Positions 12,142 through 16,252 of a stretch of DNA of 64,000 bases are shown in pieces. The position numbers were made by a program, and so were the translations under genes. How positions within the stretch are numbered: the stretch's first letter is position 1; each line of letters begins with the position of its first letter. Source of the DNA: Pirellula staleyi DSM 6068 (lineage in GTDB: Bacteria > Planctomycetota > Planctomycetia > Pirellulales > Pirellulaceae); assembly GCA_945900945.1 (NCBI GenBank), contig CAMDKL010000003.1:1-64000 (forward strand), in the 5' to 3' direction. The notes beneath the pieces were generated by a model. It was given only the letters and a program-made list of their open reading frames with translations, was not told the origin of the DNA and ran no database searches.

Positions 12142-13287
12142 ATGTTGCGAAAACCGACAGTTGTTCTCTCTCTGCTTATGGGCAGCTTCCTCTTTGCTGG
12201 CTGTACTGATTCTGGCAGCAAGGCCTCCACGGCTGGCAAATCAACCAGTCCGGCCAATGCGTCTGTGGAGAGCACAGGTAAAGTTGCCGGTCTTAAACGA
12301 ATCGTTCTTCTCAATAATACCGACTCCCCGTTTTGGGATGCAGCTCGAGCAGGCATTAGCAAGGCAGTTGCGGACCTTAAGCTTGTGGAAGCTGGACTAA
12401 CCGCCGGCATGGATACGAACGATGGTACCGATCAAGGACAAATCGAAAAGCTTCGGCAGTACGGCACGCAAAGCGACATTGTCGCAGTCGTCATCTCGCC
12501 GACATCCGCATCCAATCCTGCAGTCGCAGACGAATTGAAGAAATTAAAGGCCAAGGGGATTATTATCGGTTGCTTCGATAGCGACTTGGATGAAAAACTT
12601 CGTTCTTATCGTGAATTTTATGTCGGAACGGACAACGAAAAGGGTGGTAAAGTTCTCGGCACTGCAGCAAAAAATCTTAAAATCGATGGTGGTGAGTATG
12701 TTCAATTTGTTGGACTGGATAGCCAATTGAACGCCATTCAGCGCATGGACGGATTCACCGCAGCGGTTGGGTCTAAATATAAACAAATCGCACGGCGTAT
12801 CGATGATACGGACCGTCAGCGAGCCCGCGACAATGTTCGACAGAGCATTGACCAGAATCCGAACTTATCGATTCTCGTTGGCATCTGGTCTTACAATGCT
12901 CCAGCCATCGTAGACGTCGTAAAAGAACGCAAGCTACGCGAAAAAATGACGATTGTAACTTTCGATGCGGAACAACTTGCAATCCAGCAAATGGGGGATG
13001 GAATGATCGACGCCATGGTTGTTCAGAATCCTTTCGGTATGGGCTACGACTCGGTGCGTTATTGTTTTGCCAAGCTGGGAAAAGATGACAAGACGGTAAA
13101 GGAAATGTTCCCAAACATGGGTACACCCGGTGGAGATATTTTGGATACAGGCCTCAAAGTGGTTATTCCGGACACCGGCTCGGCTCTCAAAGCAGAGATG
13201 TTCACGGAGTTTGGTACGGGCGTCGAGTTCATTTCCATGAGCAAGTTTCAAGAGTGGCTCAAAAAATACGGCCTCACAAGTTCATAG
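12142..13287 (+). CDS. sugar ABC transporter substrate-binding lipoprotein (RbsB/XylF type)
   Basis: This 381-residue protein opens with a lipoprotein signal ending in LFAGC (Cys 21) and a Ser/Thr-rich linker. A periplasmic-binding-protein-like domain of the ribose/xylose class (Peripla_BP_4) follows: IVLLNNTDSPFWDAARAGISKAVADL, then IVAVVISPTSASNPAV, IIIGCFDSDLDEKLR, FYVGTDNEKGGKVLG and DGMIDAMVVQNPFGMGYDSV. It captures the sugar outside the cytoplasmic membrane and passes it to the permease and ATPase encoded next. The ligand cannot be read from sequence. A 207-bp gap with an inverted repeat pair separates it from the permease gene, which may let it be made in excess. Confidence 0.9.
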   Translation: MLRKPTVVLSLLMGSFLFAGCTDSGSKASTAGKSTSPANASVESTGKVAGLKRIVLLNNTDSPFWDAARAGISKAVADLKLVEAGLTAGMDTNDGTDQGQIEKLRQYGTQSDIVAVVISPTSASNPAVADELKKLKAKGIIIGCFDSDLDEKLRSYREFYVGTDNEKGGKVLGTAAKNLKIDGGEYVQFVGLDSQLNAIQRMDGFTAAVGSKYKQIARRIDDTDRQRARDNVRQSIDQNPNLSILVGIWSYNAPAIVDVVKERKLREKMTIVTFDAEQLAIQQMGDGMIDAMVVQNPFGMGYDSVRYCFAKLGKDDKTVKEMFPNMGTPGGDILDTGLKVVIPDTGSALKAEMFTEFGTGVEFISMSKFQEWLKKYGLTSS

Positions 13288-13320
13288 TACGACGCGGAAG
13301 TTTTGAAGTTGCACATCCGG

Positions 13321-13425
13321 TACAAGCCCGCAGCGTAAGCAAGGGATATACCTCATAGCTAAGCGGTTTTCACCTTCGAAAATTGGATAAAAAATCAATT
13401 CCCTCGCTGGCGCTTCGGGTTTGTA
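13321..13425. repeat. inverted pair of GCCCG-AGCG repeat units between binding protein and permease genes
   Basis: TACAAGCCCGCAGCGTAAGC (start of the unit at 13321-13346) and the reverse complement of 13400-13425 (TACAAACCCGAAGCGCCAGC and on) agree at 21 of 26 positions. They face each other across 53 bp, so the RNA could form one long imperfect stem. Units of this type occur between genes in other planctomycetes as far as I recall. Confidence 0.7.
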
Positions 13426-13494
13426 TTTCGTTGGCATTTAAATCAAAGACGACTAAAATACTTTAACTCGATTCATTCTAAATAGGTATTGTGC

Positions 13495-14703
13495 ATGAGT
13501 TCTCAGAAGCCAAGCCTTATTTTTCGTCTCTGGTCCAGTGTTGAATTCAAGTTGATTCTGGCATGGCTATCAGTGGTTTTAGTTACGGTTTTGCTAGATC
13601 CCGGTCATACCTACTGGAATAATCCAAGCGATTCGGCGGTAATCGTTATACGCAACTCGGTTTTGTTGGGGTTTTTTGCGCTTGGCAGCGCCATTATCAT
13701 CATCTCCGGCGGGATTGATCTCTCGAGCGGTTCGGTGATTGCCATGAGCGCGACGGTCTTCGGCTCGCTGTTGATTGCGCTGGATCCGACCGGTTTTCGG
13801 GAAGGGCACATTGCAAACTGGGCAGTACTCATCGCCGTCTTGGGAACACTCCTGTCGGGGGCCATGGTTGGAACGCTTCACGCATGGCTAATCACTTGCG
13901 TTGGTTTGCCGCCATTCATCGCTACGCTGGCAACGCTGGTGGGCCTTCGCAGTTTCAGCCGAGGTGTAACTCTGGCAATGACCAACAATAAATCACAAAT
14001 TGATTTCCCTGACCTTGTTCTTAGGGAATCGTTAAAAGATGTGCGATACGTCTCGATCGTGTTCCTCGTGCTGGCCGTTGCGCTTTGGTTTCTGATGAGT
14101 CGAACGGTCATCGGTCGCCATCTCCATGCGATGGGTGGCAATGAACAGGCCGCTAGACTGAGTGGTATTCGCACGGAGCGACTCAAGTGGCTGGCATACG
14201 TAATCGGTTCCGTATCGGCTTCGATGGTCGGCATCGTTTATTTTGCGGATTCGGGATCTGCCAAGCCGGACATCTTGGCTCGTGGCTATGAGTTGAACGC
14301 AATTGCCGCATCGGTAATCGGTGGCTGCTCGCTGCAAGGTGGAGTCGGTACCATTCCTGGTACCATTCTTGGTTGCTTGTTTTTGAAAACGGTTATCGAT
14401 TCCGTGAACAAGATCGTTGGTTCGGGAGCCGATGTGTACGAGGGCATGATCGTTGGCATCGTTGTCGTGATGGCTGTTACGTTTAGTCAGCGTACAGGGT
14501 CAGCTAGGGCTCAGACGTTTTTTGCCACTCCGATCGGTTGGGCCTCGATCCCAGTGCTAAGTATTCTCACTGGCATTTCCTTTCTGCTCTTTTTTCGCGA
14601 TAAACCTTGGTTTTCTCCGATGCACGCTGCCGCTTTCGGTGCCATTGTTGCATGCATTCTGATTGCACGTGGCGTGATGGAAATCCGGGCCAAGCGAGCA
14701 TAA
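13495..14703 (+). CDS. sugar ABC transporter permease (RbsC type)
   Basis: This is a polytopic membrane protein of the BPD_transp_2 family, about 402 residues from ATG 13495 (a TTG two codons upstream is less likely). It carries the diagnostic GGIDLSSGSVIAMSA loop, ITCVGLPPFIATLATLVGLR, and late GYELNAIAASVIGGCSLQGG followed by GTIPGTILG. Beyond the usual ten helices it has two further C-terminal hydrophobic segments (IPVLSILTGISFLLFF and AFGAIVACILIARGVM), which ribose permease lacks. It forms the channel for the sugar bound by the upstream lipoprotein. It lies 16 bp before the ATPase gene. Confidence 0.92.
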   Translation: MSSQKPSLIFRLWSSVEFKLILAWLSVVLVTVLLDPGHTYWNNPSDSAVIVIRNSVLLGFFALGSAIIIISGGIDLSSGSVIAMSATVFGSLLIALDPTGFREGHIANWAVLIAVLGTLLSGAMVGTLHAWLITCVGLPPFIATLATLVGLRSFSRGVTLAMTNNKSQIDFPDLVLRESLKDVRYVSIVFLVLAVALWFLMSRTVIGRHLHAMGGNEQAARLSGIRTERLKWLAYVIGSVSASMVGIVYFADSGSAKPDILARGYELNAIAASVIGGCSLQGGVGTIPGTILGCLFLKTVIDSVNKIVGSGADVYEGMIVGIVVVMAVTFSQRTGSARAQTFFATPIGWASIPVLSILTGISFLLFFRDKPWFSPMHAAAFGAIVACILIARGVMEIRAKRA

Positions 14704-14719: not shown

Positions 14720-16252
14720 ATGATCACAGAGTCAACTCCAGTTATTTCTATTCGCGGCATTGGCAAGCAATTCAATGCCGTTCGAGCATTGAACGGTGTG
14801 AGCTTTGACGTCATGCCTGGTGAGTTGCATGCCGTCATGGGTGAAAACGGGGCTGGCAAGAGCACGTTGATGAAGATCCTGTCAGGAGTATACAGTGAGT
14901 ACGAAGGAGAGCTGTTTTTGCGAGGCAAGCCCGTTCGCTTCCACAGTACGCGCGAAGCCGAGGATGCCGGTATTGGCATTATCCATCAAGAGTTGAACTT
15001 GGTGGAGCAGCTGAGCGTCGCCGCAAATATCTTCTTGGGTCGGGAAACGAAGCGAGCCCTTGGAATACTGAATCAAGGTGCGATGGATCGACGGGCTGCC
15101 GAGTTGCTTGCACAACTTGAATCCAATATTTCGCCTAGGGCGTTGGTGAGTTCGCTCCGTGTCGGCGATCAGCAGTTGGTGGAAATTGCCAAAGCGATTT
15201 CGCTGGAGGCGGAAATATTGATCATGGACGAGCCAACCAGCGCACTGACTGAATCGGAAGTCGCTCGTCTGTATGGTGTGATCGACCGATTGCGGAAACG
15301 AGGGGTCACGATCCTATACATATCGCACAAGATGGATGAGGTCTTCCGGCTCGCTGAACGTATCACTGTTTTGCGCGACGGTCAGTTTGTGCAAACCGTT
15401 AATCGAGCCGACGCAACGCCACGTTCGATTGCACACCTCATGGTCGGTCGCGATATCGAACCTGCACGACGACGCCAAAGCAATCAAGCGTCGAGTGTAG
15501 TATTGGAAACTCAAGGACTGTCGCTGGCTTGGCCTGGGCATTCACGCGGATGGCGCCTCAAAGACGTTTCTTTCAAGCTGAATCAAGGAGAGATTCTCGG
15601 CTTTGCTGGTCTCATGGGAGCTGGACGGACGGAACTGCTCGAGTGCCTTTTCGGAGCTAGCTCGGTCCAGCCTCAAGGGCAGTTGATTGTACAAGGCAAA
15701 ATGGAGCGTTTCTCTCATCCTGCAGAAGCGATGAAGGCGGGTATTGCGATGGTCACCGAGGATCGCAAGCGGCTCGGGCTGTTCGCCCAAATGACGGTTC
15801 GCGAGAACACGACCCTTTGTTCCTTGCAAAATTGCTCAACCGCTGGCGTTTTGAGTCGGTTGCGTGAACTGGCTGCGACAGATAAACAGATCCGGTCCTT
15901 GGCGATCAAGTCGAGCGGGCCTGAAGCGAGGATTACTAGCTTGAGCGGAGGCAATCAACAAAAGTGCATAATCGGCCGATGCATGTTGACTAGACCGAGC
16001 ATTCTCCTATTGGATGATCCGACTCGCGGCGTTGATATCGGAGCGAAAGCCGAACTCTATCAATTGATGGAGCAGCTTGCAACCGAAGGGGTCGCAATCA
16101 TTGTTACCTCGTCTGAGTTACCCGAGTTGCTAACGGTCAGCGATAGAATTTTGGTGCTTTGCGAAGGAGTCATCACGGGCGAGTTTACCCGCGAGGAAGC
16201 TACCGAACAACGGATCATGGAAGCAGCTACGCAACAACCTCATTTTGTATAA
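14720..16252 (+). CDS. sugar ABC transporter ATP-binding protein with two ATPase domains (RbsA type)
   Basis: The 510-residue protein has two ABC cassettes in tandem. The first has Walker A GENGAGKST, the signature-like VGDQQLVEIAKA and Walker B ILIMDEPTSAL. The second has the degenerate Walker A GLMGAGRTEL usual for the second half of RbsA-like proteins, with signature LSGGNQQK and Walker B ILLLDDPTRGVD. It energises uptake through the permease encoded just upstream. The end of the operon is marked by a pair of repeat B hairpins 30 bp downstream. Confidence 0.95.
   Translation: MITESTPVISIRGIGKQFNAVRALNGVSFDVMPGELHAVMGENGAGKSTLMKILSGVYSEYEGELFLRGKPVRFHSTREAEDAGIGIIHQELNLVEQLSVAANIFLGRETKRALGILNQGAMDRRAAELLAQLESNISPRALVSSLRVGDQQLVEIAKAISLEAEILIMDEPTSALTESEVARLYGVIDRLRKRGVTILYISHKMDEVFRLAERITVLRDGQFVQTVNRADATPRSIAHLMVGRDIEPARRRQSNQASSVVLETQGLSLAWPGHSRGWRLKDVSFKLNQGEILGFAGLMGAGRTELLECLFGASSVQPQGQLIVQGKMERFSHPAEAMKAGIAMVTEDRKRLGLFAQMTVRENTTLCSLQNCSTAGVLSRLRELAATDKQIRSLAIKSSGPEARITSLSGGNQQKCIIGRCMLTRPSILLLDDPTRGVDIGAKAELYQLMEQLATEGVAIIVTSSELPELLTVSDRILVLCEGVITGEFTREEATEQRIMEAATQQPHFV

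Follow-up and report, generated by a model that had tools for sequence, protein, structure and literature searches.

The inverted repeat that lies between the binding-protein and permease genes of a sugar-importer operon is one copy of a small mobile family that is dispersed through the Pirellula staleyi genome. Judged by its sequence, the element is a REPIN-like REP dimer. We propose, at a probability of roughly 0.5, that this REPIN-like element, carried in a TAG-ended mosaic, was inserted at the stop codon of the binding-protein gene and that its hairpin would make the binding protein exceed the permease. The window (the whole stretch of DNA analysed here, 64,000 nucleotides) contains the following features of the operon and of the element.

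12142 to 13287, + strand: binding-protein gene (Peripla_BP_4, 381 aa); its stop TAG (13285-13287) forms the element's first three bases
13285 to 13493, + strand: the whole mosaic, an element of about 208 bp with a well-located left end and an uncertain right end
13285 to 13300, + strand: left outer end TAGTACGACGCGGAAG, agreeing (by eye) at 14 of 16 positions with the beginning of a second REP type, TAGCACGACGCGCAAG
13301 to 13315, + strand: terminal-repeat core TTTTGAAGTTGCACA, common to other copies and to a REP-inserting element
13321 to 13346, + strand: left REP unit, from repeat-family matches and the unit alignment
13347 to 13399, + strand: 53-bp spacer between the units, homologous in the aligned long copies
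13400 to 13425, - strand: right REP unit, inverted, from repeat-family matches and the unit alignment
13431 to 13459, + strand: promoter-like TTGGCA-17-TAAAAT, 10 of 12 matches, at chance level
13484 to 13486, + strand: AGG, possible weak ribosome-binding site 8 nt 5' of the permease ATG (by eye)
13495 to 14703, + strand: permease gene (BPD_transp_2), with the ATG at 13495 as the ortholog-aligned start
14720 to 16252, + strand: ATPase gene (ABC_tran)

The operon thus follows the order binding protein, permease and ATPase, with 207 nt between the binding-protein stop and the permease ATG. The ORF list begins the permease at TTG 13489; the ATG at 13495 is used here on the basis of the ortholog alignment. 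As originally predicted, the left unit and the reverse complement of the right unit are identical at 21 of 26 positions and both lie inside this gap. The repeat finder missed the pair and listed only an overlapping 21-nt palindrome at 13341-13376. When the 105-nt pair is folded as RNA, the predicted energy is -40.1 kcal/mol and none of 500 dinucleotide shuffles is equally stable. The longer stretch from 13285 to 13494 is less exceptional (z = -2.36, 3 of 200 shuffles as stable), while the lone units of the window fold at -6.5 and -3.9 kcal/mol and are equalled by 51 and 389 of 500 shuffles. According to these folding models, the exceptional structure belongs to the unit pair only, and single units resemble shuffles. 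The pair goes beyond chance because no shuffle folds as stably and because the same element recurs in the genome.

How widely does the element occur? The genome search suggested with the original prediction returns 86 matches of the 25-bp unit with up to 3 mismatches, and 0 for the control, which is the same pattern read backwards. The full 105-bp stretch is found at 12 places in its own genome, the window included, the best other match having E = 1.2e-31. Seven of the 12 places (again with the window) span at least 94 bp, and the other six of these are 74-88% identical. In a search of 40 genomes, with at most 22 candidates scored per genome, a match over most of the length occurs in the own genome only; the matches listed in five other genomes, all from different families of the same order, span about 23 to 34 bases, and among the matches scored 0 of 24 same-genus genomes has one at E 0.001. 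A slightly different unit pattern, with up to 2 mismatches, matches the own genome 82 times; from other families of the order, G035 has 241 matches, G038 181 and G039 300, while the same-genus genome G012 has 19 and the remaining genomes have 0 to 6; its reversed control gives 0 or 1 per genome. Since the family is dispersed and its unit pair is absent from the corresponding junctions of orthologs (described below), the sequence record points to an insertion and not to evolution in place. It is therefore hardly credible that a regulatory structure arose at this spot for the importer operon: the position is that of the E. coli malE-malF repeat, but six dispersed copies keep 74-88% identity over at least 94 bp and the unit pair is absent from 54 ortholog loci.

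The units follow a consistent arrangement. The 86 matches fall into 55 sites, and the arrangement was counted at 41 of these: all 29 unit pairs are head to head (tagged outward), and a single unit is present at the 12 other sites. The 25-bp patterns are spaced by 7-15 bp in a short form, or by 53-56 bp at six sites that include the window. The spacer is not common to all six, with the site on contig C149 outside the 105-bp matches and that on C70 matching only around the right unit. With ORFs called by length only, and with 2 edge sites left out of the 41, unit sites fall between called ORFs in 23 of 39 cases, versus 162 of 1025 random places. These 23 lie between co-directional (11), convergent (8) or divergent (4) ORFs, and the other 16 are inside called ORFs. 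The inner units start with TACAAG or TACAAA, and TAG is seen on outer ends only.

When eight copies are aligned with their flanks, the homology extends past the units, from the TAG at 13285 to about 13462; beyond this point the right part of the element is too diverged for its end to be placed. The position of the unit pair in the original prediction holds, and the extent given there, which stopped at the units, was too narrow. The second REP type, TAGCACGACGCGCAAGCTAGTG, matches the own genome 16 times with up to 2 mismatches, and the tag of one of these 16 assigns it to the first type; a limit of 3 mismatches gives 53, many of them first-type units, and 2 for the control. With up to 1 mismatch, it has 722 matches in G023 and 219 in G021. 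Because the outer ends resemble this second type, the element can be described as a mosaic in which ends that resemble one REP type enclose a head-to-head pair of another.

Two side observations follow. The TAGCACGACGCGC-type REPs in G023 and G021 (722 and 219) often form arrays. Separately, elements with the terminal repeat TTTTGAAGTTGCRC appear, by eye, to interrupt REP units and to be flanked by 8-bp duplications, for example CGCGCAAG; they are located in G000 on contigs C124 (L118, about 602-900), C6 (L122) and C54 (L131, where one base differs). From their sequences they appear to be a REP-targeting insertion element, and further copies are seen near contig ends (C162, C7 and C44), as expected of a multicopy parent.

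The core of the unit is associated with Y1 transposase genes that are class-3-like, an assignment made by motifs and not by the published class 3 profile. On contig C42 of the own genome, eight related units lie in and around a Y1 transposase-like gene (L074 3033-3749, 238 aa). Four of the eight carry the tag CATTAG, one AACAAG and none TACAAG. The C42 protein has matches in 21 of the 40 genomes. Thirty transposase loci contain 95 units, a count that takes in loose variants and includes C42 itself (8 of the 95) and one gene split in two, versus 3 for the reversed control and 4 units at 29 permease loci; 14 of the 30 are without any unit. The motifs NHxH and Y----Q, sought as a simple pattern, occur at 22 of the 30 loci, mostly with W[TA] between them. 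Excerpts of PMC6006769 give these two motifs as the class 3 TnpA-Y1 signature, and describe the class as found mainly in planctomycetes, acidobacteria and proteobacteria, with flanking repeats that have a CnGA foot. In G035 (241 units), a unit of the window type (TACAAG) lies beside a class-3-like gene (L152). Unit number does not track the presence of a transposase match: G038 (181 units) and G012 (19) have no match, and several genomes with a match have 0 units. The own genome has only one gene of the C42 type. Around its other Y1 genes that were examined, a unit is present only in the C2 stretch, more than 3 kb away, in addition to two weak matches with 5 mismatches.

As an observation in its own right, the C42 gene holds REP units inside its reading frame, and the frame is unbroken. 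REP units inside the reading frame of their own transposase are reported for subclass 2.4 in the excerpted text of PMC6006769.

The dispersed copies, the head-to-head pairs and the crowding of units at Y1 genes together lead to the description of the element as a REPIN-like REP dimer.

We now consider the junction of the element with the binding-protein gene. In the own genome, the TAG serves as the stop of a frame of at least 350 codons at 5 of 12 long-element ends: those of the window binding protein and of LpxK, helicase, aminotransferase and amine-oxidase domain genes. As background, TAG ends frames of at least 300 codons in 13 of 996 cases in the window and 25 of 2840 in the other loci (about 1%). 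Versus the higher of these rates, the binomial probability of the excess, a pattern found after the fact, is 2.8e-7. The 12 ends consist of nine beside an inner unit, that on C20 and the right ends of C2 and C150. Left out are 17 of 28 terminal-core matches, which lie in elements without an inner unit and where 0 of 17 is the stop of a frame of at least 100 codons, as are, for lack of an alignable core, C1 and C14, the left end of C2, and the right end of the copy in the window. An element TAG is also the stop of two shorter frames, of 87 and 66 codons, that have no Pfam match.

The same count for the second REP type gives TAG stops in 2 of 63 cases in stretches of G023 (background 66 of 5864); the own genome has 2 of 12, both at one site, and G021 has 0 of 14, which makes 4 of 89 in all (binomial 0.03). 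Stop-codon targeting as a general rule is not upheld, the wider test in G023 and G021 having failed to repeat the own-genome excess. Units do cluster just past gene ends: of the outermost units, 18 of 47 (G023) and 6 of 16 (G021) are no more than 60 bp away from a stop that closes a frame of at least 150 codons, versus 31 of 800 random places in each. In excerpts of PMC3733652, GTAG REPs are described as often supplying TAG stops. At L237 2109-2168 (G000:C147), two convergent frames, of 443 and 532 codons, both end at stops supplied by a short TAG-tagged REP pair of the second type. For the LpxK gene on contig C5, the two closest orthologs end 11 codons later, and the element may have trimmed this gene.

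What does the junction look like in relatives? In all 16 same-genus orthologs (L087-L102; permease identity 68-73%), the two genes overlap as ATGA and there is no unit pair. Among the 54 ortholog loci that have both genes (46 once 8 with a duplicate permease are dropped), none has the unit pair at the junction, although a loose match to a single unit lies within 600 nt in five of them. The permease and binding-protein trees both group the window with L164, L165 and L166, with moderate support that is not starred (90/86 and 94/91). In these three, the genes are 70, 98 and 110 nt apart, measured to the aligned ATG, and units are absent; in L166, an upstream in-frame GTG would shrink the gap to 5. 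Unit-free gaps in the closest lineages of the trees mean that the gene overlap was probably lost before the element arrived and that the element is probably not what uncoupled the importer genes. Excerpts of PMC10666635 describe six gene pairs of E. coli and Haloferax in which coupling all but disappeared with a gap of about 20 nt, so the importer of the window's group is, by inference, likely to be uncoupled with or without the element.

The ends of the binding proteins lead to the same place. The alignment reaches the residue that matches Ser381, the last of the window protein, in 52 of the 54 loci, and the stop is adjacent in the printed junctions. The element therefore lies at the usual stop position, with both proteins left whole. 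The gaps of L164, L165, L166 and L169 (70 to 221 nt) fold like ordinary sequence (z between -0.71 and +0.56, the folds of the first three taking in one base of the stop codon), and for this reason a hairpin at the junction is, on these predictions, not a conserved need. Two candidate accounts were rejected on the same loci: an insertion into an ATGA overlap with a 3-bp CAT duplication, since L164, L165 and L166 already have gaps, and convergent hairpins in related gaps, since the folds of these three and of L169 are unexceptional. Apart from this, the closest genus genomes with a match, G023 and G021, have an LpxK that is 82-83% identical and an importer permease that is only about 46-47% identical to that of the window; because of this disparity, the window's importer may have been acquired from elsewhere.

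Combining these observations, we can describe how the element may tune the two importer genes. A TAG-ended mosaic with two head-to-head 26-bp units would have been inserted in this lineage exactly at the binding-protein stop, the REP element presumably mobilised by a class-3-like Y1 transposase. The gap would be transcribed through, from the binding protein into the permease. After decay of the message from downstream, the hairpin would form the 3' end of the binding-protein message and slow 3'-to-5' decay. The permease, 207 nt away, would be translated from its own start behind the weak AGG, and the binding protein would end up in excess of the permease.

Nearly as likely as this expression effect is that the REP element is a tolerated passenger, harmless behind a stop codon and with no selected effect on the importer. 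The presence of the same element at unrelated loci agrees with a passenger, as do the 54 ortholog junctions that lack the unit pair and the ordinary folds of the four related gaps (70 to 221 nt), but the predicted hairpin is very stable and is positioned where it could act.

It is distinctly improbable that the element supplies a promoter and a ribosome-binding site to the permease, so that the genes are expressed separately. The original prediction had named a promoter in the gap as a point that would speak against it. One promoter-like site does exist (TTGGCA-17-TAAAAT at 13431-13459, 10 of 12 matches), and the AGG is found 8 nt 5' of the permease ATG; however, shuffled sequences are expected to have 1.0 +- 0.9 such sites, and the corresponding letters differ, by eye, in the C2 and C150 copies. 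Still less probable is a hairpin that works as a transcription terminator or attenuator. Although the stem is strong, GC-rich and directly 3' of a gene, the gap has 0 terminator-like sites where 0.8 are expected, and the downstream permease and ATPase frames are intact. An Rfam search of 12900-13700 gives 5 matches up to E = 10, all far from the gathering score.

Returning to the proposed excess of binding protein over permease, a broader version can be stated, in which a nested planctomycete REP mosaic moved by class-3-like Y1 transposases would land on TAG stops, plant strong hairpins right at the ends of genes, re-set neighbouring genes and so unbalance the importer. We regard this version as unlikely. 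The narrower observation is that a mobile repeat can, as the sequences suggest, enter an operon at a stop codon with both proteins unharmed and add a predicted hairpin between the genes. The importer needs the products of these two genes in unequal amounts. If the effect is true, the operon would be a natural planctomycete case of REP elements re-setting gene ratios, and the orthologs with overlapping genes, together with the related lineages that have a plain gap, form a ready comparison.

The closest known arrangement is in E. coli, where a REP sequence between malE and malF (Newbury et al. 1987) reportedly protects the upstream mRNA and lowers downstream expression. The original prediction drew this likeness, and part of it stands: the element is REP-like, it follows the binding-protein gene directly and precedes the permease gene, and its predicted RNA hairpin is long and stable. 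The part that gives way is a need particular to this junction, since the repeat is mobile and dispersed, 54 ortholog loci lack the pair and four related gaps fold ordinarily. The repeat sequence and the importer family are also different from those of malE-malF.

REPs, their transposases and the TAG stops that REPs supply are already published, and the element described here is a variant of them. As in the REP dimers, BIMEs and REPINs of PMC3733652, PMC6006769 and PMC3116915 (as excerpted), the units are short, mostly extragenic, head to head and numerous in some genomes; as in excerpts of the first two sources, they lie around and inside Y1 transposase genes. In contrast to these systems, the inner units are tagged TACAAG and not GTAG or CGTC, a longer TAG-ended mosaic encloses the pair with its 53-bp spacer, and single units of the window are not exceptional hairpins. 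The likeness to class 3 TnpA-Y1, as excerpted from PMC6006769, consists of the NHxH and Y----Q motifs, usually with W[TA], the planctomycete host, and repeats around the gene with many copies in the genome. The CnGA foot of that class is matched, by eye, by CCGA in the common core and in the right unit of the window, whereas the left unit reads CCGC.
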